The position numbers and the translations under genes were made by a program. Under the pieces are notes generated by a model, which saw only the letters and a list, made by a program, of their open reading frames with translations, made no database searches and was not told where the DNA came from. 64,000 bases of DNA, from positions 1-64,000 of the forward strand of contig JANXEN010000003.1 of assembly GCA_025058345.1 (NCBI GenBank). The letters run 5' to 3'. Shown here piece by piece: positions 30,577 through 42,823 of this stretch. Numbering within the stretch: the first letter of the stretch is position 1; each line of letters opens with the position of its first letter. This DNA comes from Sulfolobales archaeon. Lineage in GTDB: Archaea; Thermoproteota; Thermoprotei_A; Sulfolobales; NBVN01.

Positions 30577-31083
30577 ATGGTAGGTGATTTAGATAAGATT
30601 CTGAATGATGTAGAAACATTAGCTAAGGATTTAGACCTTAAATACCATGGGTGCTCTCAAATGGCTTTGAAGGCTTTACAGGAAGTCCTAGGTATTGAGG
30701 ATGGGAATGCGTTTAAAGCGGCTTCAGCCCTTGCAGGTGGTGTTGCTAGGGGTGGTGAGGTATGCGGTGCCTTGCTAGGGGCTTTAATGGCTGTCAGCTT
30801 AGTCTACGGTAGGGATAAGTTAGAGCCTACCTACCTATCTAAAAATTATTTGAAGGCTATGGAGGTAGGTTATAAAGTTTTTGATGGGTTTAAAGAACAC
30901 TTCGGTAGTGTCCGATGTAGGGACATCCATATGAGGCTGTTCAATAGGTACTACAACTTAAGGGATCCTGGAGAGGCGGGTGAGTTCTTCAGTAGCGGTG
31001 CGATAAATAAGTGTGCAGATGTGGTGGCTGTAGCTGCTAGGCTGGCTGCAAAGGCAATAATAGAATCTAAGGATCTGTACTAG
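30577..31083 (+). CDS. C_GCAxxG_C_C family redox protein
   Basis: A protein of 168 residues with the family pattern: C26 in YHGCSQMAL, GGVARGGEVCGALLGALMA with its cysteine, and later cysteines in VRCRDI and INKCADVV. The family is widespread in anaerobes and thought to bind a redox cofactor or metal through these cysteines, without proven function. SD GGTTGTGG lies near the start. It precedes the hydrogenase operon by 160 bases of AT-rich DNA. Confidence 0.8.
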   Translation: MVGDLDKILNDVETLAKDLDLKYHGCSQMALKALQEVLGIEDGNAFKAASALAGGVARGGEVCGALLGALMAVSLVYGRDKLEPTYLSKNYLKAMEVGYKVFDGFKEHFGSVRCRDIHMRLFNRYYNLRDPGEAGEFFSSGAINKCADVVAVAARLAAKAIIESKDLY

Positions 31084-31270
31084 ATATTGGCTTTAAATTA
31101 TTTAAACTGCGTTACCTAATTAATTAAATTTATTTTTAAATATATCCTAAATTAATTCGAAATGGCTTTTAAGAGTTTATACAGTAATTAACTTCTTAAT
31201 ACTTAAATTCCTTCTCACCCTATATAGCTTAGGTAAGGCATAACTCGTGGAGATGGGGTCAGGTGGTTGG

Positions 31271-31792
31271 ATGGATTCCGTTAAGGAAAGAAGTGTGGAT
31301 GAGGTAGTGTCAACTATTCTAGGTAAGTATAACCAACGCCATCACCTCATGAGGATTCTTCAGGAGGTTCAATCCAATTACGGCTACCTCCCACGTGAGG
31401 CTCTTGAGAAAATATCTCAGAGCACTGGAATACCTTTAAGCGATATAATTAACGTAGCTACGTTCTACCACCAATATAGGCTTGAAATCCCCGGGTACTA
31501 CATATTCCTTGTATGTATGGGTACTGCCTGCCACCTGAAGGGTAATCAAGACAACTATAACGTCTTAAGAAATACGTTAGGGATTAAGAAAGGCAACACA
31601 TCATCTGATGGACTAGTAAGTGTTGAGAAAGCTCGATGTTTCGGTTGCTGCTCTTTAGCACCTGTAATGATGGTTGTTAGCAGGGACGGCTGTGAGAGAT
31701 ACCTACACGGCAACGTAGATATTAAGGAAACCAAGAAGTTAGCACTCACATATAGGTCCATGGCTTCAAAGAAAGTGAGGAGTGGTGAGTGA
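31271..31792 (+). CDS. NuoE-like [2Fe-2S] subunit of a hydrogenase/diaphorase complex
   Basis: A helical N-terminal domain ([18 protein letters not shown], typical of NuoE/HydC/HndA) is followed by a thioredoxin-like ferredoxin whose cysteines lie in [11 protein letters not shown] and [11 protein letters not shown]. This subunit carries a [2Fe-2S] cluster next to the flavin of the NuoF-like partner. ATG 31271 follows GGTGGT by three bases; GTG 31247 is also open. It is the first gene of the five-gene operon ending at 37101 and overlaps nothing upstream. Confidence 0.87.
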
Positions 31793-31793
31793 G

Positions 31794-33752
31794 ATGGCTG
31801 AATGGACTTTAATGGATAGGTGCTGCGATAAGTGCTGGCATACCGTTGAATATCCCTGTAAGCACTTCATTAGATGCACGGTTGAAGGCCCTCTATGTCA
31901 CGAAAGCGCTGAATGTAGGGTTAAGAGGAAGAGGAGGATTGAGGAATTAAAATATGGGAAGTACGGCATTAAGATTAAGGTACCGATTTCAAGCTGTACG
32001 CTTGCTGCTGGAGCTAAGGAGGTCTACGACGCTGTCAGTAAGGAAGTTCTATCAAGTGGTTTGAATGCCGACATAACGATTAGCGGATGTATGGGTCTCT
32101 GCTATCTAGACCCTTGGATTGAATTATCGAAGAAGGGGTTACCTACAGCGATCTACGTTAACGTCAAACCTGGGGACGTACCTAAGATACTTAAGGAGTA
32201 TTTAAGCGGAGATCTCTCAAACGCATTCGCGTTGAGGGCAGATCCTGAAGGAATCTACAAGAACTACAAAGTTCCTTTACTGAATGACTTAACGCTTTGG
32301 TCTAATCAGGTTAGGTTCGTATCGAGGGGATGCGGGGTTTTAAATCCTGAATCCATAGAGGATTACATCATTTCGAATGGGTTTAGAGGACTTGATAAGA
32401 TCTTAAACATGCATCCTAAGAACGTTATAGAGTTTGTTAAGAAGTCAGGGCTGAGGGGCCGTGGCGGTGCTGGATTCCCTACATGGATGAAGTGGGAGAT
32501 AGCTCAGTCACAGGTTAGCGACATTAAGTACTTCATAGTGAATGCTGATGAGGGAGACCCTGGAGCGTTCATGAATAGATTATTAGCTGAGTCAGACCCC
32601 TACAGAGTTATTGAGGGTATGATAATAGGTGCTTACGCCGTAGGTGCTTCGAAGGGATACATCTTCGTAAGGGCTGAAAAGCCGTTGATGGCTGACAGGC
32701 TTTCTAAGGCGGTAGAGGAGATAAGGAAGTACGGCTTACTAGGTAGGAATATTCTGGGCAGCGGCTTCAGCTTCGATATAGAAGTCATATTAAGTGCTGG
32801 AGCGTTCGTATGTGGTGAGGAAACAGCTTTAATATCAGCTATTGAGGGTAGGACTAGACCTAGGCAGAGGCCTCCCTACCCAGCAACAAGGGGTTTATGG
32901 GATAAGCCTACAGTCATAAATAACGTTGAGACAGTCGCGCACGTAGCTACAGTATTTCAAGTTGGTGTAGAGGAATTCACGAAATACGGGACTGAGAAGA
33001 GTAAGGGAACTAAGATGTTCTGCGTTACAGGATGTGTCAGTAGGACTGGAGCTTATGAGGTCCCAATAGGTATGAGTTTAAGTAAGTTGGTCTACGACCT
33101 AGCAGGAGGTCCCCCAGACGGTAAGAAAGTTAAGGCCGTTCAGATAGGAGGACCTAGCGGTGGATGTGTACCCAGCAACTTACTGAACACTCCAGTAGAC
33201 TACGAATCCCTTCAGAGTGCTGGAGCCATAATGGGTTCGGGAGGTGTCGTAGTTATTGATGAGGATAGCTGCATGGTTGACGTCGCTAAGTTCTTCACAA
33301 GCTTCACGCTGGCTGAATCATGCGGTAAGTGCTTCACCTGCAGGGTTGGCATGAAACTACTTTACGATATACTTAAAAATATAACTGAAGGTAAGGGTAG
33401 TGAGGAGGATTTAGAGCTCCTCAACGAGTTGAGCGATGTTATAATTGGTAGTAGTCTATGCGCTCTCGGAGGCACCGCACCTAATCCAATTAAATCCACC
33501 TTAAGGTATTTCAGGGATGAATACGTTGCCCATATTAAGGATAGGAAATGTCCGGCTAAGGTCTGTCCAAACCTCGTTGAGTACTGGATAGATCCGGCTA
33601 AGTGTGTTGGGTGCGGATTATGCGTTAAGGCATGTCCCACGAACTTCATCACCGGTGAGAGGGGTAAACCCCACTCAATAGATCCATCTAAATGTATTAG
33701 ATGTTCGCAGTGCTTCATCACATGTCCTCAGGGAGCCGTCATCAAGAGGTGA
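31794..33752 (+). CDS. NuoF-like NAD(P)H-oxidising flavoprotein subunit with extra N-terminal and C-terminal Fe-S domains
   Basis: Order of domains in 652 residues: a cysteine-rich N-terminus (CCDKC, then PLCHESAEC), a thioredoxin-like [2Fe-2S] domain (CTLAAGAKE and SGCMGLC), the NuoF core with [13 protein letters not shown] (NADH/FMN site) and [13 protein letters not shown], the N3 cluster motif [12 protein letters not shown] with a later cysteine, and a 2[4Fe-4S] ferredoxin ([12 protein letters not shown] and [12 protein letters not shown]). This matches HydB/HndC of bifurcating hydrogenases. ATG 31794 lies just after the NuoE stop, with GGTGAG four bases upstream. It delivers NAD(P)H electrons to the hydrogenase, or the reverse. 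Confidence 0.92.
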
Positions 33753-33756
33753 GCGT

Positions 33757-34425
33757 ATGGTTAAACTGTATATAAATAATAAGGAGGTTCAGGTGGAGGC
33801 CGCATCCACTCTACTAGACGCTATAGTGCGGGCTGGGTTTAAGGTACCGACTCTATGTTACCTGAAGGATATGTTCAATGAAGCTACCTGCAGGGTATGC
33901 ATTGTTGAGTTAAGTGGCGGTAGATTAGTTCCCTCATGCTCGTACCCAGCGTCTGAAGGTTTGAGAGTCCTCACAGACAGTGAGCGGGTTCTTAAGTACC
34001 GCAGAGCTATAGTGGAGATGATATTAGCGTCGCATAAGATTAAGTGCCAATCATGTAGTATGAAGGGAGGGTATTGTCAACTCCTTAAGTTATCAAAAGA
34101 ATTTGGAGTTGAGGGAATACCTGTATGTGCTGAGTGCCCGCTCTACGGAAGTGAATGCCTGCTTAACCTAGGCATTGCTTGCTTAGGCCCTGTCACTATA
34201 GCTGGTTGTGACGCTATATGCACTAAGGAAAGATCACCTTGCATAGGCTGCAGAGGGCCTGCATCACCAGATGATGTCCTGGAGGAAGGTATTAAGACCT
34301 TCATAAAGTATAAAATCAACATAGATGAGGTAGTTGGTATATCTGAACTGTTTTGGGGTTCGAACCCCTTAACTCAAACTATACGTAAGTTATTTACAAA
34401 TCTACATGAAGGTGGTAGGGTATGA
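33757..34425 (+). CDS. Chimera: HydA/NuoG-type ferredoxin N-terminus joined to the C-terminal half of a [NiFe]-hydrogenase small subunit
   Basis: Residues 1-80 are a plant-type [2Fe-2S] ferredoxin (C34, C45, C48, C61). Residues 93-107 give the His-Cys3 [4Fe-4S] ligand set of NuoG/HydA (H93, C97, C100, C107). From 121 on, the sequence switches to the small-subunit cysteine array of group 3 [NiFe] hydrogenases: [25 protein letters not shown] and CIGCRGP (C124, C127, C134, C142, C151, C155, C162, C165), enough for two [4Fe-4S] clusters. A short helical tail follows. It thus carries the medial and distal wire of the hydrogenase fused to the entry clusters of a diaphorase. It ends four bases into the large-subunit gene. 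Confidence 0.85.
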
Positions 34426-35705
34426 GTATTAAGGTTGATTTTAAGGTGGATAAGGTTTTCGGACATCTAGAGCTTCAGATAGATTTACATGGAGATGAGG
34501 TGAAGACTAGGTTTGTATCTAGTGAGGATTTGAGGTACTTCGAACACATGGTTGTTGGCAGGAAATACTACGAGGTACCCTACATTGTTTCGAGAATATG
34601 TGGTGCCTGCAGTATTTCCCACTTCTTAACATCTGTAAATGCTGTTGAGAATGCCTTAAACGTTGAATTAGATGAGGAGGTGATAACCCTTAAGGAAGTT
34701 ATGCATAAGTTGGAAATAGCTCAAAACACAGCAGTTCACCTCTACTTCCTCGCATTGCCTGACTACCTTAAGGTTAGGAACTTAAGCGAGCTCATGTCAG
34801 CTAAGCCAGATATTGTTAAGTCGGCAATGATGTTGAATTCGTTAACGCTTCAGGCAGTTAACGTCTTAGCTGGTAGGATAGTTAATCCCCTTACATATAG
34901 GGTAGGTGGATTCACAAGAGGTATACCTAAAGAAACCATTGATAGGGTTATTAAGACGTTGGATAGAGCTGAGAAGCTGGCTGAGGCTTTATCCGACCTA
35001 ATACTCGGTCTAGATTTACCTAGGCTTTCAGATTCTGAGTTGAATTACTTGACAGCAGATCCTCCGACAGAATATTTAACGATCGGCGATTACTTAGTAG
35101 GAAGTGACGGAAGTAGATTTAGGGGCATGGATTACATGCAGTTTATCTCGGAAGAGATCAGTGATTATTCAACCACTAAATACTGCCGATACAGAGGTAG
35201 AGTCTTCTTCGTGGGGCCTAGAGCTAGGCTTCTAGCATTTGGTGAGAGGTTACCTGACTACGCTGGGCTCATTTACGACGTTAGGAAGGAGTTACATAAC
35301 CCCTTCAGCAACCTTAAGGCTAAGGCTGTAGAACTCCTTTACTGTATAAGTAATTCTAAGGCAGTCCTAGGAGGTCTTAAGGAGAAGAACTTCAGTGCGC
35401 CGAAAGAAGTTAGGGTTAGACGTGGGGAGGGTGTAGGCATTATGGAAGCCCCTAGAGGGTTACTAATACACCACTACGTAATTAACGATGATGGCGTAGT
35501 AGAGCGCTCGAACATAATAACCCCTACTGTAATGTTTTCTAAACACGTTGAGGTAGCTGCGAAGACGCTTAGTGAAGAATTAATCAATAATGGTGCTAGT
35601 TTAAATGAAATAGAGTTGAAGGCAGCTATGTTAGTGAGGGCTTATGACCCATGTCTCCCCTGCTCGGTACATTTAATTGTTAAGGAAGGTGATAGTCGTG
35701 AGTGA
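34422..35705 (+). CDS. [NiFe]-hydrogenase large (catalytic) subunit
   Basis: The two CxxC pairs that hold the Ni-Fe centre are intact: [10 protein letters not shown] (C60, C63, H67) and DPCLPCSVH (C411, C414, H417). A ten-residue tail after H417 ([10 protein letters not shown]) would be removed by a maturation endopeptidase, as in other [NiFe] enzymes. At 427 residues it has the size of group 3 (soluble, NAD(P)- or F420-linked) subunits. It starts by a four-base overlap with the chimeric ferredoxin gene and overlaps the next gene by eight bases. It should produce or consume H2. No maturation genes (hyp) lie in this window. Confidence 0.92.
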
Positions 35706-37101
35706 GAGGAATTTAGTCATAGCTATATATAGTTTCGGCGGCTGTGAGGGCTGCCGTCATGAGATGTTAAATTTAGGTGAAGAACTCCTAAACCTATTAG
35801 CTAAGTACGGGATTACCGTAGCGTATGAACCTCTACTAGGCTACGTTGATGAGAAGGAGGAATACGATGTAGTGTTTATAGAGGGTGCGGTAACTTCAAC
35901 TAAGGAAGTTAAGAAGTTGATGGAACTGAGGAGTAAGGCTAAGATCCTTGTAGCGTTAGGCTCCTGCAGTTACCTAGGAGGTATACCAGCTTTGATGAAG
36001 GATGTTAAGGACGAATTAACTAAAAAGTTTACTAAGTCACCAGCCATTATCCCTGTTACAGCATCACCGATAGGTAAGTATGTTAAAATTGATTACTGGC
36101 TTAGGGGATGCCCTATAAACAAGTTTGAACTCACAGCACTCCTAAAAACCATAGCAGAGGGTAGGTACTTCAGGCAAGGCATTAAGAGGTTTAACTTCTG
36201 CCGCGACTCAGTAGTAGACATTAGAGGTAAGTTAATAGGTTTAGACGGTGAGAAGTGCTTAATCTGCGGTAGGTGTGTAGGGATCTGCAGCAACATAGGT
36301 GTTAATGCCTTAGGACACGTTAATAGAGGCATCAATATAGCAGTCGCAACACCTTTCCAGGAACCTCTAGATAATACCACATGCATTACATGCGGTTTAT
36401 GCACTGCTTACTGCCCGGTAGGGGCTATAAACTACACCAACAACATACAGTTAGTTCAGGACATGTTTAAGAATGGTGAGAAGTTAGTGGCTTACGTTGA
36501 GTACGAGGCTCTAGCGGCATTAGCTGAGGCGGAAGAAACCCACCCGAATAAATTAGTGACTGCGATTAAGAAGCTTGGTTTCGATAAAGTCGTGCTATGG
36601 ACGCCTCTAGCTAACGTAAGGCCATCCGCTGATCTAAGTATATTACCTATGAGCCATGCGGAACATAAGTACATATCTCAGTTCTACCCAGACTTAAAGA
36701 AATACTTAACTCAACCTCCCTCTATGAGGATACCTTACCGCGGGGTACTCATAACTCAATGCGTTGCGAGGAAGGTTTACAGTGACTACGTCCTTACTGC
36801 TAGAGAGCTCCAGATGATGATTAAGAAATTAAACATTAGCGATTTAGAATCCTCAGAGCCTGACCACGTCTTCAAACCAGCGATATACGGTTACTTAAAG
36901 GCAGTTGGTCCCTACGAATTGAAGGGCGTGTTAGAAACTGTTAGGAGAGGTGTTATAAAGTCCGGTGTAATTGTTACGTACATATGCCCGAACGGCTGTT
37001 TGATGGGTGGTGGACAACCGCATTCCAAGCTACCTTTCGAAGTTTGCGTGGAGTGTCGTGAGAGTTACTTCGATAAATTTATGAAGGCGTACATACTATA
37101 A
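35698..37101 (+). CDS. Chimera: N-terminal half of [NiFe]-hydrogenase small subunit joined to ferredoxin and [FeFe]-hydrogenase H-cluster-like domain
   Basis: Residues 1-160 are a HoxY-type small subunit with proximal-cluster cysteines C16, C19 (GGCEGC), C90 (GSCSYLGG) and C138 (RGCP). Residues 185-245 hold two [4Fe-4S] motifs (C187, C190, C193, C197; C229, C232, C235, C239) separated by the NALGHVNRGINIAVATPF segment known from HydA/NuoG. Residues 260-445 align with the HydA catalytic domain: KLVTAIKKLGFDKV, TQCVARK (C355), VLTARELQMMI and CPNGCLMGGGQP (C430, C434). The first-loop cysteine motif (TSCCP) is replaced by LPMSHAEH, so a complete H-cluster is unlikely. I use GTG 35698, with AGGTGA five bases upstream. 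Confidence 0.88.
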   Translation: MSERNLVIAIYSFGGCEGCRHEMLNLGEELLNLLAKYGITVAYEPLLGYVDEKEEYDVVFIEGAVTSTKEVKKLMELRSKAKILVALGSCSYLGGIPALMKDVKDELTKKFTKSPAIIPVTASPIGKYVKIDYWLRGCPINKFELTALLKTIAEGRYFRQGIKRFNFCRDSVVDIRGKLIGLDGEKCLICGRCVGICSNIGVNALGHVNRGINIAVATPFQEPLDNTTCITCGLCTAYCPVGAINYTNNIQLVQDMFKNGEKLVAYVEYEALAALAEAEETHPNKLVTAIKKLGFDKVVLWTPLANVRPSADLSILPMSHAEHKYISQFYPDLKKYLTQPPSMRIPYRGVLITQCVARKVYSDYVLTARELQMMIKKLNISDLESSEPDHVFKPAIYGYLKAVGPYELKGVLETVRRGVIKSGVIVTYICPNGCLMGGGQPHSKLPFEVCVECRESYFDKFMKAYIL

Positions 37102-37253: not shown

Positions 37254-38243
37254 TTGTTAACCCAAGATAAATTACTCGATATGTATTATAGGATGGTATT
37301 GATTAGGGCTTTTGAGGATAGGGTTCATGAGCTCTTCACTCAGGGTAAAATACCTGGCTTCGTACATCTCTACGCTGGTGAGGAGGCTGTAGCAGTAGGT
37401 GTTATATCTCATTTAAGGAGAGGTGATTACATAACTAGTACCCATAGGGGACATGGTCACTGTATAGCTATGGGTGTTGATGTCAAGGGAATGATGGCTG
37501 AGCTTTATGGTAAGAAGACGGGGACTTGTAGGGGGAAAGGCGGTTCTATGCATATCGCTGACTTTGAGGTTGGGATGTTAGGCGCTAACGGTATTGTTGG
37601 TGCTGGGGGTCCTTTAGCTGTGGGGGCTGCTTTAGCCGCTAAGTATAAGGGGGGTGGGGGTGTAGTTGTATGTTTCGCCGGTGATGGTGCTCAAAATCAG
37701 GGTGCGGTGCTTGAATCTCTTAACGCTGCCGCTATTTGGAAGTTGCCAATAGTATTTGTTGTGGAGGATAACCAATACGCTATATCGTTGAGGAGTTTAT
37801 CATCTACTAAGCTTCAGCCGAGGGTTTCTACCGCGAGGTCTGTTGCTGAGAGGGCAGTTGCGTTCGGAATACCTAGCGTCACCGTCGATGGTATGGATGT
37901 ATTAGCTGTGTATGAGGCAGCTAAGGCCGCTGTTGAGAGAGGTAGAGCTGGTGAAGGTCCTTCACTCCTCGATTGTAAGACGTACAGATATTATGGGCAT
38001 TTCGAAGGTGATCCGATGGTTTATAGGAGTGTTGAAGAAATAGATGAGTGGAGGAAGAAAGATCCGATAAAGCTGTTTGAGGAGAAGTTGCTGAAGAGTG
38101 GAATTGCTACTCAAGCGATTCTCAGCGACTTACGTAGGAAGGCAGCACTAGAGGTTGATGAGGCAGTCAAGTTTGCTGAGGGGAGCCCATATCCGGAGCC
38201 TAGTGAGGCGTATACAGATGTGTTTACAGACCCGTATTACTGA
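37254..38243 (+). CDS. 2-oxoacid dehydrogenase E1 component, alpha subunit (pyruvate/acetoin type)
   Basis: The 329 residues carry the thiamine diphosphate motif from GDG (143-145) to N173 (CFAGDGAQNQG to VVEDNQYAIS), and THRGHGH and GKGGSMHIAD upstream, typical of PDH and acetoin dehydrogenase alpha chains. With the beta chain it decarboxylates the 2-oxoacid (or cleaves acetoin) and passes the acyl group to lipoyl-E2. The start is TTG 37254, behind AT-rich promoter-like DNA; 150 bases separate it from the hydrogenase operon. The AcoX-like gene in the operon favours an acetoin or broad-range substrate. Confidence 0.9.
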   Translation: MLTQDKLLDMYYRMVLIRAFEDRVHELFTQGKIPGFVHLYAGEEAVAVGVISHLRRGDYITSTHRGHGHCIAMGVDVKGMMAELYGKKTGTCRGKGGSMHIADFEVGMLGANGIVGAGGPLAVGAALAAKYKGGGGVVVCFAGDGAQNQGAVLESLNAAAIWKLPIVFVVEDNQYAISLRSLSSTKLQPRVSTARSVAERAVAFGIPSVTVDGMDVLAVYEAAKAAVERGRAGEGPSLLDCKTYRYYGHFEGDPMVYRSVEEIDEWRKKDPIKLFEEKLLKSGIATQAILSDLRRKAALEVDEAVKFAEGSPYPEPSEAYTDVFTDPYY

Positions 38244-38254
38244 AGGTGATTAAG

Positions 38255-39238
38255 ATGAGTGGAGTAAGGGAAATCACGTTTGTAGAGGCTTTAAATGAGG
38301 CGTTACTCCAGGAGATGGAGAGAGATCCTACAGTAATAGTTATGGGTGAGGATGTAGGAGTTTATGGCGGCATATTTGGAGTCACTAAGGGTTTACTAGA
38401 TAGGTTTGGGCCTGATAGAGTTGTAGACACCCCAATCTCTGAGACTGCGTTTATCGGTGCTGGAGTCGGCGCAGCTGCTGCTGGATTAAGACCTGTAGTA
38501 GAGCTGATGTTTGTCGACTTCTTCGGAGTTTGTATGGACCAGATCTATAACCAAGCCGCGAAAATGCGTTACATGTTCGGAGGTAAAATAAAGATTCCCC
38601 TAACCGTAAGAACTACGATAGGTGGCGGTGTTTCAGCTGCAGCGCAGCACTCGCAGGTACTCTACTCAATCTTCGCACACGTCCCAGGACTTAAGGTTAT
38701 AGTTCCTTCAACACCCTACGACGCTAAGGGACTTCTAATAAGTGCTATTAGAGACGATAATCCTAAGATGTTCTTCGAGCATAAGTTGCTTTACGGGGTT
38801 AAAGGTCCTGTACCTAAGGAGCCTTACACCATACCCTTCGGAACCGCAGATGTTAAGGTGGAGGGAAGCGACGTAACGGTGGTTGCAGTTGCCTACATGG
38901 TGCATGAAGCTGTTAAAGCTGCTAATGAGTTGAAGATGAATGGGATAAGTGTTGAGGTCATAGACCCGAGGACTATAGTACCTTTCGATAAGGATGCGGT
39001 ATTCAAATCTGTTAAGAAGACAGGGAGGTTGGTAGTAGTTGATGAGGACTACGAGAGGTGTGGATTTGCTTCATGGGTAGCGGCCTTAGTTGCTGATGAA
39101 TGTTTCGCCTATCTAGACGCACCTATAAAGAGAGTAACTACGCCGACAGTACCTATTCCCTTCAGCCCAGTATTAGAGAAGGAGATCTTACCGAACGCCG
39201 AGAAGATAATTAAGGCTGTAAAGGAAGTAGTTAAGTAA
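38255..39238 (+). CDS. 2-oxoacid dehydrogenase E1 component, beta subunit
   Basis: About 327 residues with beta-chain signatures: VIVMGEDVGVYGG, DTPISETAFIGAGVGAA, GG.SAAAQHSQ and VPSTPYDAKGLL in the first domain, and VEVIDPRTIVPFD in the C-terminal transketolase domain. GGTGAT four bases before ATG 38255 fixes the start over the upstream GTG at 38246. It forms the alpha2beta2 E1 with the preceding gene. Confidence 0.92.
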   Translation: MSGVREITFVEALNEALLQEMERDPTVIVMGEDVGVYGGIFGVTKGLLDRFGPDRVVDTPISETAFIGAGVGAAAAGLRPVVELMFVDFFGVCMDQIYNQAAKMRYMFGGKIKIPLTVRTTIGGGVSAAAQHSQVLYSIFAHVPGLKVIVPSTPYDAKGLLISAIRDDNPKMFFEHKLLYGVKGPVPKEPYTIPFGTADVKVEGSDVTVVAVAYMVHEAVKAANELKMNGISVEVIDPRTIVPFDKDAVFKSVKKTGRLVVVDEDYERCGFASWVAALVADECFAYLDAPIKRVTTPTVPIPFSPVLEKEILPNAEKIIKAVKEVVK

Positions 39239-39296
39239 CACTCGAATTAAAATAACTTGTTTTCTTATACTGCCTAAACTCATTTGGTGTTAAGTA

Positions 39297-40304
39297 ATGA
39301 GTACTAGGGTTGGTTTAATTATAAATCCGGATGCAGGTAAGGACATTAGGAGGCTAGTATCATCAGCTAGCTATACCAGTAACTTCACTAAGGTTGAGTT
39401 AGGTAAGAGGGTTGTTATGGGGTTGAACGCCAGCGGTGTTGATGAGGTGCTAATCATGCATGATAATTACGGCCTAGGGGAGGACGTGGTCAATATGCTA
39501 TCTACACACATAAATACTCGATTAACGTTAGTTGAGACTAAAGGCTCTGGAACCGTTCAAGACACCTTAGTAGCTGCTGAGAGGATGAGGAGATCGGGGA
39601 TTAAGGCAATTGTCGTTGTCGGCGGTGACGGCACTCTGAGGGCGGCCTTCAAGAGCTGCGGCAGTGATTTACCGATGGTGTGTGTGGCTGCTGGAACTAA
39701 TAACGTGACCGGTGCTTACTATGACGCTACATTGGCTGGATATGCTGCAGGGTTAGTGGCTACAGGGGTAGTTGGAGGTGAATGCTTGAGGAGTGCTAAA
39801 GCTCTTGAAGTCTTAATCAATGGGCGAAGCTCAGATGTTGCGGTCATTGATGTAGCATTTATGAGAAAGTCTTACGTAGGTGCTAAGGCGATCGTAGATG
39901 TGAGTGACATTGTCTACGCAATCTTCAGTAAGGGCGAGCCTACAGACATCGGCTTAGCATCTATTTTAGGCTTTTTAGACCCTACACCGTTTGAAAGCGA
40001 TCGTGGATGCTTCGTAGAGTTCGGTGACGGCGGTTTAGAAGTTAAGGCCATCATAATGCCAGGTGAGTTTAGGGTAGTACGCATTAAGGACTACAAGAAC
40101 TTGAACGTTGATGAAGTAGTTTCGATACCTTCCGGTAGATATGTAGTGGCTTTAGATGGGGAGAGGGAGTTGGAGGTTTATGAGGGTGACTCAGTCTCGG
40201 TTAGAATTACTCGTAAAGGGCCGCTCTTAATAAACGTCTATAAAGTTTTGAACACTGTTTCAGGGGCCTGCAAGAGAGGTGCTTCATTTGGTCGTCGAAG
40301 TTAG
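39297..40304 (+). CDS. AcoX-like ATP-NAD kinase family protein
   Basis: The NAD-kinase fold is shown by INPDAGKD (9-16) and VVVGGDGTLRAA (107-118), with AAGTNNVTGAYYDA after it. The length (335) and the NPxAG start match the AcoX branch found in acetoin and other 2-oxoacid dehydrogenase operons, whose true reaction is not established. It sits between E1beta and E2 and overlaps E2 by 17 bases, so it is co-expressed with the complex. A cofactor-related job, such as phosphorylating NAD or a small metabolite, is inference. Confidence 0.82.
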   Translation: MSTRVGLIINPDAGKDIRRLVSSASYTSNFTKVELGKRVVMGLNASGVDEVLIMHDNYGLGEDVVNMLSTHINTRLTLVETKGSGTVQDTLVAAERMRRSGIKAIVVVGGDGTLRAAFKSCGSDLPMVCVAAGTNNVTGAYYDATLAGYAAGLVATGVVGGECLRSAKALEVLINGRSSDVAVIDVAFMRKSYVGAKAIVDVSDIVYAIFSKGEPTDIGLASILGFLDPTPFESDRGCFVEFGDGGLEVKAIIMPGEFRVVRIKDYKNLNVDEVVSIPSGRYVVALDGERELEVYEGDSVSVRITRKGPLLINVYKVLNTVSGACKRGASFGRRS

Positions 40305-41484
40305 GATGCCTAAGCTAGGGTTAACGATGACTAAAGGGACTGTTAAGAAGTGGTTGAAGTCTGAAGGAGACCGAGTGAGTAAGGGTGAACCGTTGTTCGT
40401 TATAGAGACTGAGAAGATATCGTCTACCGTAGAGGCCCCTGCTTCCGGATATCTCCTAAAGATATTGGCTCAAGTAGGTAGTACATTACCTGTGGGGGCT
40501 CCAGTAGCTTATATAGGTGAGTTTGGTGAGGCTCTACCGGAGGTTACTCCACCTCTACCGGTTTCTGAGGCAGCTAAACCAGTAGAGAGGGAGGCAGAAG
40601 CGGTGTCTAAACCAGTTACCCCAACACGTGTGAGGGCAACGCCGAGAGCTAAAGCATTAGCTGAGAGGGAAAGGATAGACTTGACAGCAATAAGGGGTTC
40701 AGGGCCTGGGGGCTTAATAGTTGAGGAGGACGTCATTAAGTACTTACATGAGGTTAGGGCTAGGACTAAGTCTGGATTAAGGGTTAAGGAGGTAATACCT
40801 CTGACATCTCTGAGAAGAACTATAGCGGAGAGGATGACCGAAAGTTTGAGGTCTATGGCTCAAGTAACAATTATGAGGGAGGAAGTTGTCGATGCGTTAA
40901 TCAAAGTTAAGAACGAGTTACAGCAACAGATTGAGAAGGATACGAATATCAGATTAACTTACACCCCTATACTGGTTAAAGTTGTTGCTGAGGCTATTAA
41001 GAAATTCCCAATAGTGAATTCCACGCTTGAGGATGATAGCATTAAAATCTTAGATGAGATTAATGTGGGATTCGCTGTAGCTGTAGATCATGGATTAGTC
41101 GTTCCGGTAGTTAAGGATGTAGATAAGAAGAGGTTAAGGGAGATAGTGGTTGTTTGTAATGACTTAGCTCGTAGGGCGAGAGAAGGTCAACTAACTATGG
41201 ATGACGTCTCAGGCGGGACCTTCACCATAACCAACTTAGGTATGTTTGGAGTTGATGCGTTCACACCTATAATTAATCCACCTCAAACAGCTATATTAGG
41301 GGTGGGAAGGTTTATACCTAAGCCGGTGGTTATTGATGATAAGGTCGCAGTCGCTAACACATGCGTATTCAGCCTGACCTTCGACCACAGAGTGATGGAT
41401 GGCCACACAGCTGCACAGTTCCTCAACGAGTTAATTAATCTAATCAAAGATGAACATAGATTGAGGGCTGTTTTAAGTGAGTAG
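40288..41484 (+). CDS. Dihydrolipoamide acyltransferase (E2)
   Basis: One lipoyl domain with the lysine at K43 (ETEKISS), a Pro/Ala/Val-rich linker (about 80-118), a peripheral subunit-binding domain (TPRAKALAERERIDL and GSGPGGLIVEEDV) and the catalytic domain ending with DHRVMDG (H about 367, D about 371). It is the core of the complex and transfers the acyl group to CoA. I use TTG 40288, seven bases behind GAGAGGT; GTG 40279 is less well placed. It overlaps AcoX upstream and E3 downstream. Confidence 0.92.
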   Translation: MVVEVRMPKLGLTMTKGTVKKWLKSEGDRVSKGEPLFVIETEKISSTVEAPASGYLLKILAQVGSTLPVGAPVAYIGEFGEALPEVTPPLPVSEAAKPVEREAEAVSKPVTPTRVRATPRAKALAERERIDLTAIRGSGPGGLIVEEDVIKYLHEVRARTKSGLRVKEVIPLTSLRRTIAERMTESLRSMAQVTIMREEVVDALIKVKNELQQQIEKDTNIRLTYTPILVKVVAEAIKKFPIVNSTLEDDSIKILDEINVGFAVAVDHGLVVPVVKDVDKKRLREIVVVCNDLARRAREGQLTMDDVSGGTFTITNLGMFGVDAFTPIINPPQTAILGVGRFIPKPVVIDDKVAVANTCVFSLTFDHRVMDGHTAAQFLNELINLIKDEHRLRAVLSE

Positions 41485-42823
41485 TGAAGAATTCGATGCA
41501 TTAGTTATTGGTGGTGGACCAGCTGGTTATTGGGCGTCTCTAATAGCATCTATTAGAGGACTTAAAGTGGTGTTGGTTGAGGAAGGTAGGGTAGGTGGTA
41601 CTTGCCTAAATTACGGGTGTGTGCCGTTAGTCACTTCAATGAATTACTTATCCACTGTAGACTTAATTAGGAAGCTGTCTTCGGAGGGTTCAGGCATATT
41701 TGTTAAGGATCTGGAGGTGGATATCGGTAAGGTATTCGAGTATGTTGAGAAGAACGTAACGACGCCTATATCTGAGGGTATGAGGAAGACTTTAGAGGAC
41801 CTTGACGTAAGGATAATTTCTGGCAGAGCAACCCTCATAAACGAACGTACTGCTAAGGTTGGGGATAAAGTCATCGGGTTTAAGAGGGCGGTAATCGCCT
41901 CAGGGCTGAGTTGGAAGTCCCTTGAAGGGGCTCTACCATGTGTGGAGTTCACTAGGATTAGGGAGAAGCCCAGTAAGGTGTTAGTGGTTGGTGGTAATCC
42001 CTTCGGCCTTTCAATCGCATCGCTCTTCAGCATGTTGGGTTGTGAGGTGTTAGTGGTTGAGGGATCTACGAACGTGTTAGAGGGATTTGACACGGAGGTA
42101 TCTGAGTACTTACTAATGATGCTGAGGGAGAAAAACATCGAGGTCATGTTGAATACTAAAGTGGTTAAGGTTGTTCTTAGTGGTGACGGTAAGAAGGTAC
42201 GTCTAAGCACTCCTGAAGGGGAACTTCATTTAAGTGTTGATGTAGTGTTTGATGCTGTGTCATACTCTCCTAGGCTGGATTCTTTGGGTGGGGTTAAGGT
42301 AGATCTGGAAAAAGGCTATATCCGCGTTGACGAACGCTTAAGGACTAGCGTAGGTAACATCTATGCTGCGGGTGACGTTACAGGCACATCACAGTATGCC
42401 AACGTTGCCATAGTTCAGGGAATCGTAGCTGGTGAAAACATTTCAGGGAATGACTTGAGGATTAATCTGAAGTTGTTGCCGAGATACTTGTTTACCTATC
42501 CTGAAGCGTTTTCAGTAGGTCTCACGGAGAGTGAGGCTAGGAAAGCAGGATACGTGGTTTCTGTGGCGCGTCAATCCTTAGCAAGCAACCCGATCTTAAG
42601 AAGTGTTGGCAGTGCGGGAATGGTTAAGGTTGTTGTTGATGCTAATTACGGCGGCATTTTAGGGGTTCAGGCTGTCGGTCACGGAATTACTGAGCTAATA
42701 AATGAGGGGATATTAATGGTTGCCCTAGAGTCTACATGCGGCTCCATAATAAATACGTACCTTGCACATCCAACGGTAGGTGAAGTGCTTAGAGACTCTC
42801 TCATTCAGGTATATAGACCATGA
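41477..42823 (+). CDS. lpdA: Dihydrolipoamide dehydrogenase (E3)
   Basis: FAD-binding VIGGGPAGYWAS (10-20), the redox disulfide GTCLNYGC (C43, C48), NAD-binding VLVVGGNPFGLSIAS, a second FAD motif IYAAGDVTG and the C-terminal catalytic pair in LAHPTVGEVL define the enzyme. It reoxidises lipoyl groups on E2 with NAD. After the second cysteine the usual IPSK is VPLV, and the central dinucleotide loop is GNPFG rather than GxGxxG, small departures that may affect cofactor choice. The gene overlaps E2 by eight and the ligase gene by four bases. Confidence 0.9.
   Translation: MSSEEFDALVIGGGPAGYWASLIASIRGLKVVLVEEGRVGGTCLNYGCVPLVTSMNYLSTVDLIRKLSSEGSGIFVKDLEVDIGKVFEYVEKNVTTPISEGMRKTLEDLDVRIISGRATLINERTAKVGDKVIGFKRAVIASGLSWKSLEGALPCVEFTRIREKPSKVLVVGGNPFGLSIASLFSMLGCEVLVVEGSTNVLEGFDTEVSEYLLMMLREKNIEVMLNTKVVKVVLSGDGKKVRLSTPEGELHLSVDVVFDAVSYSPRLDSLGGVKVDLEKGYIRVDERLRTSVGNIYAAGDVTGTSQYANVAIVQGIVAGENISGNDLRINLKLLPRYLFTYPEAFSVGLTESEARKAGYVVSVARQSLASNPILRSVGSAGMVKVVVDANYGGILGVQAVGHGITELINEGILMVALESTCGSIINTYLAHPTVGEVLRDSLIQVYRP

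Follow-up and report, generated by a model that had tools for sequence, protein, structure and literature searches.

A candidate five-subunit [NiFe] hydrogenase with HydA and small subunit fused crosswise in a Sulfolobales archaeon

The window considered here is the whole stretch of DNA that was analysed, 64,000 nucleotides long (positions 1 to 64,000, forward strand, of contig JANXEN010000003.1 in assembly GCA_025058345.1 of a Sulfolobales archaeon). Five adjacent frames on the + strand at 31247–37101, in the order C-B-A'-L-S', form an archaeal hydrogenase operon in which parts of [FeFe] and [NiFe] hydrogenases are fused, as found by Pfam, NCBIfam and PDB searches. Its genes are the following.

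31247–31792, + strand: C, HydC/NuoE-like protein (BfuC) with a thioredoxin-like [2Fe-2S] domain (PF01257, E 6e-38); an in-frame ATG lies at 31271
31782–33752, + strand: B, HydB/NuoF-like protein (BfuB; Pfam, NCBIfam; PDB 7t2r_B, E 3e-197)
33757–34425, + strand: chimera A' (222 amino acids), HydA N-terminus followed by a small-subunit C-terminus (Pfam, NCBIfam and PDB searches)
34422–35705, + strand: L, [NiFe] large subunit (PF00374; PDB 9nez_D, sulfhydrogenase alpha, E 1e-54)
35698–37101, + strand: chimera S' (467 amino acids), small-subunit N-terminus followed by the C-terminal half of HydA (Pfam, NCBIfam and PDB searches)

Neighbouring genes overlap by 11 (C/B), 4 (A'/L) and 8 bases (L/S'), except that B and A' are 4 bases apart; S' starts with GTG at 35698, with an alternative TTG at 35677. 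The frames and Pfam families bear out the initial annotation in placing the large subunit between the two chimeras and HydC/HydB-like genes alongside. A complete separate small subunit within the operon would have spoken against that annotation; none was found, either among the frames or by Pfam domain search, and an ordinary one (a 262-residue frame) sits on another contig of the same genome.

The two chimeras have the following parts and positions.

33757–34122, + strand: A' residues 1–122, HydA/NuoG N-terminal [2Fe-2S] and His/Cys3 [4Fe-4S] (PF13510, PF10588, NF040763)
34123–34422, + strand: A' residues 123–222, sulfhydrogenase-delta C-terminus with eight cysteines (NF040836, 9nez_A)
35698–36168, + strand: S' residues 1–157, N-terminal domain of a [NiFe] small subunit (PF01058; NF045875 at 8–157)
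36211–36462, + strand: S' residues 172–255, HydA-type 2[4Fe-4S] (NF040763, 8a6t_A)
36475–37038, + strand: S' residues 260–447, shortened H-domain (PF02906; alignment with canonical HydA)
36652–36654, + strand: Ser319, at the position of the L1 cluster cysteine (MAFFT alignment with canonical HydA)
36760–36762, + strand: Cys355, kept H-cluster cysteine (alignment, 36 S')
36985–36987, + strand: Cys430, kept H-cluster cysteine (same alignment)
36997–36999, + strand: Cys434, kept H-cluster cysteine (same alignment)

In A', residues 1–122 correspond to residues 1–121 of the 571 of group A6 [FeFe] HydA (NF040763, E 4e-34), and residues 121–213 to 164–259 of sulfhydrogenase delta (NF040836, E 4e-13; 161–257 of PDB 9nez_A). 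The ligands of the [2Fe-2S] cluster (C34, C45, C48, C61) and of the [4Fe-4S] cluster (H93, C97, C100, C107) are invariant in the 28 aligned A' sequences, and so are the eight cysteines of the second half (C124, C127, C134, C142, C151, C155, C162, C165), the presumed ligands of the medial and distal [4Fe-4S] clusters. Thus, the initial annotation was right in describing A' as a HydA/NuoG N-terminus, with just these ligands, joined to a small-subunit C-terminus. The single-chain AlphaFold2 model of A' (predicted local distance difference test, pLDDT, 81.1; predicted template modelling score, pTM, 0.73) matches the HydA of T. kivui, T. maritima and A. mobile and the 75-kDa subunits of complex I in Foldseek over about 120 aligned columns.

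Conversely, S' begins as a small subunit, with residues 16–150 matching PF01058 (E 3e-23) and residues 8–206 matching PDB 9e15_A, the latter overlapping the HydA-type match, and it continues as HydA, residues 172–299 corresponding to HydA 132–266 (NF040763, E 6e-34). Its proximal [4Fe-4S] ligands (C16, C19, C90, C138) and the eight cysteines of the HydA-type dicluster (C187, C190, C193, C197, C229, C232, C235, C239) are invariant in 29 of 29 aligned S'. The small subunit is therefore split, its N-terminal half in S' and its C-terminal half in A', where a group 3 [NiFe] hydrogenase has both in one chain. An assembly or frameshift artefact was rejected as an explanation: the same chimeras are open in 36 full-length S', and their recurrence in other genomes makes chance or assembly error untenable.

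The cut points can be located by comparison with an operon of genome G241 (locus L160) in which both proteins are whole. Residues 1–123 of A' align with 4–126 of that HydA and residues 123–180 with 166–229 of that small subunit, whereas S' 173–465 aligns with HydA 135–516 and its N-terminal piece, used as query, aligns at 6–156 with small subunit 4–155. This places the two complementary cuts near HydA 126|135 and small subunit 155|166; 8–10 residues are left unaligned at each. Domain searches divide both proteins in the same places, in agreement with the earlier proposal that HydA and the small subunit were each cut once and rejoined crosswise around the large subunit.

The last part of S' descends from the catalytic domain of [FeFe] hydrogenases. 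Residues 362–438 match the last two-fifths of PF02906 (Fe_hyd_lg_C) at 31.9 bits, over a cut-off of 22.1, and the best Foldseek match of the AlphaFold2 single-chain model (pLDDT 79.3, pTM 0.63) is the [FeFe] hydrogenase CpI (E 3.5e-15, template modelling score 0.48 by query, root-mean-square deviation 10.6, so that the match is piecewise), with sulfhydrogenase delta 9e1j_A lower down (E 1.5e-12). Pfam, NCBIfam, PDB and Foldseek therefore concur in a HydA origin of this half, which the initial annotation had wanted confirmed. Against this, a six-frame search of the own genome with PF02906 gave no match, though hmmscan of the protein did, for which reason the former is no sensitive test. The models of S' and A' support the identity of the domains, not their assembly.

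It is conceivable that this domain still binds and uses an H-cluster, which would make the system a double hydrogenase with both [FeFe] and [NiFe] sites. The 36 full-length S' on which this can be judged (29 aligned sequences plus L039, L044, L045, L141, L143, L145 and L161, brought together by aligning to a profile built from S' itself; a fragment of L068, which differs at the L2 position, stands outside the count) all keep the L2 and L3 cysteines, three of the four that hold the H-cluster, and the L3 motif C-x-x-G-C-x-x-G-x-G is present in every crosswise row scanned. Against this, the L1 ligand is serine in 35 of the 36 and cysteine only in L161; in the window it is Ser319, which is assigned to the cluster-ligand position on the strength of a MAFFT alignment with canonical HydA that has no gaps between this residue and the YP motif. 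The proton-relay position is a cysteine in two of the 36 (L065, L161), and the equivalent of Lys358 (CpI numbering) is Arg in 22, Trp in 11 and Lys in three. Furthermore, the L1–L2 and L2–L3 segments are greatly shortened relative to canonical HydA, and the PF02906 score falls from 334.8 bits in a canonical archaeal HydA (L070) through 140.4 and 129.4 in the uncrossed L160 and L158 and 57.3 in the crosswise L161 to the 31.9 of the window. The H-domain thus apparently no longer resembles an [FeFe] active site, so that, of the initial description of S', the division into a small-subunit half and a HydA half stands and the likeness to an H-cluster site does not.

The maturation genes point in the same direction. 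HydG was not found in the window's own genome, nor over the cut-off in any of 60 genomes (own included, with one sub-threshold match) or in 8 further genomes. HydF did not exceed its cut-off in any of the 60, all of which gave weak matches that are probably to general GTPases. Neither of these two [FeFe] maturases was thus found, and no search was aimed at HydE. HypD and HypF are over the cut-off in the own genome; therefore, the maturation machinery found is that of the [NiFe] site and not of the [FeFe] site. Taking all this together, we consider a double hydrogenase very unlikely.

A different question is whether the remnant does something else. Ser319, Glu322 and the three cysteines are invariant in the 29 aligned S', and in the larger set 35 of 36 retain the glutamate three residues after the L1 serine, whereas the remainder of the domain has diverged so far that PF02906 is not listed at E 0.01 in the crosswise L047 and L061. 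Such conservation would suit a working centre, for instance a Ser-ligated [4Fe-4S] cluster serving to tune a branch or to pass electrons to and from a partner, which would be compatible with a [NiFe] enzyme. On the other side, the equivalent A4/A5 branch of HydABCSL is called a dead end and most likely nonfunctional in PMC8880783, and no partner gene was identified. We regard a working centre as doubtful, if less so than a surviving H-cluster.

The remaining subunits are of bifurcating type. The parts recognized in B are a CCxxC prefix, an N-terminal [2Fe-2S] region, a site for flavin mononucleotide (FMN) and NADH, an N3-type [4Fe-4S], the B2-type motif H-x5-C-x4-C and a C-terminal 2[4Fe-4S]. 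From residue 71 to the C-terminus (71–654) B aligns with the bifurcating HydB 7t2r_B, FMN motif and B1 included, and the His-containing B2 motif is found together with the B1, B3 and B4 ligands ([17 protein letters not shown] and two C-terminal ferredoxin motifs). It contains PF01512, PF10531, PF10589 and Fer4 families, which we take to correspond to the InterPro entries that define BfuB. According to PMC9304861, these are IPR011538, IPR019554, IPR019575 and IPR017896. C is homologous to HydC (the 29 PDB chains listed for it include 8a6t_C and 7t2r_C) and carries the [2Fe-2S] domain of BfuC. BfuA, defined in PMC9304861 by 2Fe-2S (IPR001041) and 4Fe-4S (IPR017896) domains in one protein, is here divided: A' carries Fer2_4, S' the Fer4 dicluster. 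In the large subunit, the four cysteines of a Ni-Fe site are present in ICGACSISH and DPCLPCSVH, followed by a tail of 10 residues past the His; CGxC and DPCxxCxxH occur in all 25 crosswise L examined. Eight of these 25 (L054, L056, L057, L060, L061, L062, L064, L065) end exactly at DPCxxCxxH and, having no cleavable tail, may not need the usual maturation protease.

The crosswise layout is found well beyond the window. A contig scan with the single protein as query returned no relatives, while one with the alignment found them. Near-full-length S' occurs in 17 of 59 other genomes and, in a sample of the phylum, in 19 of 398 (the window's own included) together with one copy broken by stops; among the best 80 of 179 confirmed stretches there are 29 full crosswise S' loci (L038–L066) and the frame-broken L068, the other 50 matching from query residue 158 or beyond, in the HydA-type part only, and 10 of them serving as canonical references. 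These sets overlap. The labels of the genomes that bear S' include Desulfurococcales, Desulfurococcaceae, Pyrodictiaceae, Ignisphaera, Sulfolobales, Thermofilales/Thermofilaceae, Thermoproteales, Wolframiiraptor, Archaeoglobales and Bathyarchaeota. In a phylum sample around the Archaeoglobales metagenome-assembled genome (MAG) G062, which holds L047, one of 294 genomes has a crosswise S', namely G062 itself. Of the loci L038–L066, 23 have all five genes as C-B-A'-L-S'; at contig ends, L044 and L045 keep B-A'-L-S' and L038 and L039 keep L-S', and L050 has S' alone. An ordinary sulfhydrogenase delta and alpha pair lies near the crosswise operon in L041, L046/L166, L051, L055 and L058/L167, and a decayed S'-like stretch with in-frame stops was seen at G025:C1:14875-15632.

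Uncrossed operons were also found. G241 (L160) has C, B, a HydA of 549 residues, a small subunit of 238 residues and L in line, and G084 (L158) and G105 (L159) have HydA, small subunit and L. No HydB/HydC was found within 7 kb upstream of L158, and L159 is uninformative in this respect because its contig ends 0.75 kb upstream. As read from the sequences, L158–L160 keep the L1 cluster cysteine and have Ala or Glu in place of the proton-relay cysteine; L161 is crosswise and retains all four H-cluster cysteines. Trees were made by a quick method, with the Shimodaira–Hasegawa-like approximate likelihood ratio test as the only support and without near-duplicate loci and L159. The crosswise rows fall on one side of a branch with support of 98 for the HydA C-terminal part (26 rows), 93 for the HydA N-terminal part, 94 for HydB (with long-branch warnings) and only 52 for the small-subunit N-terminal part. 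In the free tree of L, L161 stands apart among ordinary sulfhydrogenases; constraining the 25 crosswise rows together (approximately unbiased test, p 0.88), or crosswise with uncrossed rows (0.84), was not rejected. These results are compatible with one origin of the crosswise layout. The uncrossed operon would be a natural substrate for the cut; descent from it is allowed by the trees, not demonstrated, since the trees of L and of the small-subunit N-terminal part place L158 and L160, with weak support, among ordinary sulfhydrogenases, and the three groups of the unrooted tree of the HydA C-terminal part meet at one point.

A simple scheme can be drawn from this, which we put forward tentatively and as something short of an even chance: A' and S' might both stem, as reciprocal products, from one crossover. 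The starting point would have been an L160-like ancestor with the arrangement [HydA N|C][small subunit N|C][L]. A crossover linking the HydA and small-subunit genes, each near its middle, would have left HydA-N/small-C (A') followed by L; the excised circle, carrying small-N/HydA-C (S'), would have re-entered after L, giving the order A'-L-S' with complementary joints and every domain kept. The freed H-domain would then have decayed from a four-cysteine site, as in L161, to the Cys3-Ser site of the 35 others. If this is true, a [NiFe] enzyme built of two interlocking chains preserves a fossil of [FeFe] catalysis.

On the whole, we think that the five genes probably encode one [NiFe] hydrogenase of the HydABCSL/Bfu type, with subunits C, B, A', L and S', that links NAD(H), ferredoxin and H2. 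The initial annotation had proposed a single complex linking NAD(P)H, possibly ferredoxin, and H2, and this is still the best inference in view of the bifurcation-type ligands of HydB/HydC and the Ni-ligand motifs. The Ni-Fe site in L would be where H2 is formed or consumed. A HydA-like fold would be rebuilt from the N-terminal part of A' and the C-terminal part of S', and a small-subunit fold from the N-terminal part of S' and the C-terminal part of A'; therefore, each chimera should need the other. Clusters A1 and A3 (His/Cys3) would lie in A' with two further small-subunit clusters, and A2, A4 and S1 in S', a placement that is our own mapping, presumed by analogy with N1b, N4, N5 and N7 of complex I. 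Electrons could then pass from NAD(H)-FMN and B1 in B to the [2Fe-2S] in A', the HydA-type [4Fe-4S] in S' and the His/Cys3 [4Fe-4S] in A', and onward through the two small-subunit clusters of A' and the proximal cluster of S' to Ni-Fe in L, so that the wire would weave between the chimeras and cross chains about three times. For HydABCSL, PMC8880783 gives the chain as FMN-B1-A1-A2-A3-S1-NiFe, with A1 a [2Fe-2S] and A4/A5 on a side branch. The H-domain relic of S' would lack an H-cluster; its three cysteines and serine may hold a simple [4Fe-4S] on such a branch or only keep the shape. As B and C hold the ligands of the bifurcating core, the reaction is likely to be NADH + 2 reduced ferredoxin + 3 H+ <-> NAD+ + 2 oxidised ferredoxin + 2 H2, in either direction.

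Several observations weigh against this proposal. The absences of maturases are soft because the MAG of the window is 82.6% complete. The S' model has pLDDT below 50 at 96–104, 107–119, 161–170, 188–192 and 199–220, that is, in the linker and the first ferredoxin motif. BLAST matches overrun the cut in several pairs: with whole S' as query they extend to S' 206 at small subunit 207, and against the HydA of L158 they begin at S' 132 and HydA 95. We attribute these weak overruns to Cys-rich stretches that match by chance, because the NCBIfam and PDB searches score S' 172–299 as HydA. The bathyarchaeal L049 (2591–7197) and the frame-broken L068 (5241–9190) have C-B-A'-S' without an adjacent L, and thus fit poorly with an obligatory five-gene unit; a different partner is possible there. 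As a separate observation, each of these two genomes has one large subunit elsewhere that matches other sulfhydrogenase-type rows at about 37%, the other large subunits compared giving no match at 1e-20. Finally, the B2 ligand that is C476 in A. mobile is Thr in the window, and the B subunits of L054, L057 and L161, three of 26 crosswise B (duplicates removed), have no C-terminal 2[4Fe-4S], their match ending at query residue 596; these are perhaps not ferredoxin-linked, and bifurcation cannot be general.

The last two points would also suit a non-bifurcating, Hox-like NAD(P)-linked [NiFe] hydrogenase in which B merely relays electrons between NAD(P)H and Ni-Fe. However, the same Thr is found in the bifurcating HydB of T. 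kivui (8a6t_B), and both C-terminal ferredoxin motifs are present in the window's B besides H-x5-C-x4-C, whose His, according to PMC9304861, virtually every BfuB carries and non-bifurcating homologues lack. H-x5-C-x4-C, SCGKC and GRGGAGFP occur in 26 of 26 crosswise B, with at least one C-terminal ferredoxin motif in 23; H-x5-C-x4-C occurs in two of five bacterial HydB scanned for comparison. A Hox-like enzyme therefore seems unlikely to us, and the bifurcating five-subunit hydrogenase is preferred.

The surroundings of the operon offer some context. Directly upstream lies a C_GCAxxG_C_C redox-active protein (30577–31083), and directly downstream (37254–42823) a 2-oxoacid dehydrogenase complex with E1-alpha, E1-beta, an extra protein, E2 and E3; from its position, this complex is a plausible source of NADH. 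Amid the dehydrogenase genes, the 39297–40304 protein looks like an NAD kinase on inspection and has no NCBIfam match. Rfam (at gathering thresholds) and ARAGORN gave no matches in the window, nor did a plasmid search with its first 25 kb.

If the five-subunit enzyme is as proposed, it would illustrate the modularity of complex-I-like electron wires, as two unrelated hydrogenases would have been recut so that the chain alternates between two chimeras. The series from canonical HydA through whole HydA plus whole small subunit (L158–L160) and the crosswise four-cysteine form (L161) to the crosswise Cys3-Ser form (35 of 36) opens the handover from [FeFe] to [NiFe] catalysis to experiment. A practical consequence is that an archaeal protein matching Fe_hyd_lg_C is not necessarily an [FeFe] hydrogenase.

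Among known systems, the closest is the NiFe-HydABCSL of Acetomicrobium mobile (NiFe-Bfu, type 3; 7t2r/7t30), which likewise has five subunits (C, B, A, S and L), [NiFe] catalysis, a HydB/C core homologous along its length with nearly the same ligands, and a HydA-type subunit without an H-cluster. It differs in that its HydA and HydS are whole, HydS with one cluster (PMC8880783), whereas both are cut crosswise in the window. The window's small-subunit halves, moreover, are of the longer sulfhydrogenase type. The [FeFe] HydABC enzymes of T. kivui (8a6t) and T. maritima (7p5h) share the HydA halves found in A' and S' and the HydB and HydC homologues; in the window, by contrast, HydA is spread over two chains, the H-cluster site is lost and catalysis is assigned to [NiFe]. 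Sulfhydrogenase I of P. furiosus (delta/alpha; 9nez, 9e1j), which belongs to group 3b, resembles the large subunit and both small-subunit halves, unlike the window in that its small subunit is not split between two genes; the window's HydB/HydC presumably stand where that enzyme has its beta and gamma subunits. Hybrid complexes from fused [FeFe] and [NiFe] hydrogenases were reportedly described by Greening et al. in 2024 (Cell 187:3357) from ten archaeal orders, and such hybrids are said to be called active in the title of a published study. The window system is probably a member of these archaeal hybrid hydrogenases, with which its observed spread would fit, and the reciprocal cut, the Ser-for-Cys relic, the four-cysteine intermediate and the uncrossed operons may be new detail with respect to them.

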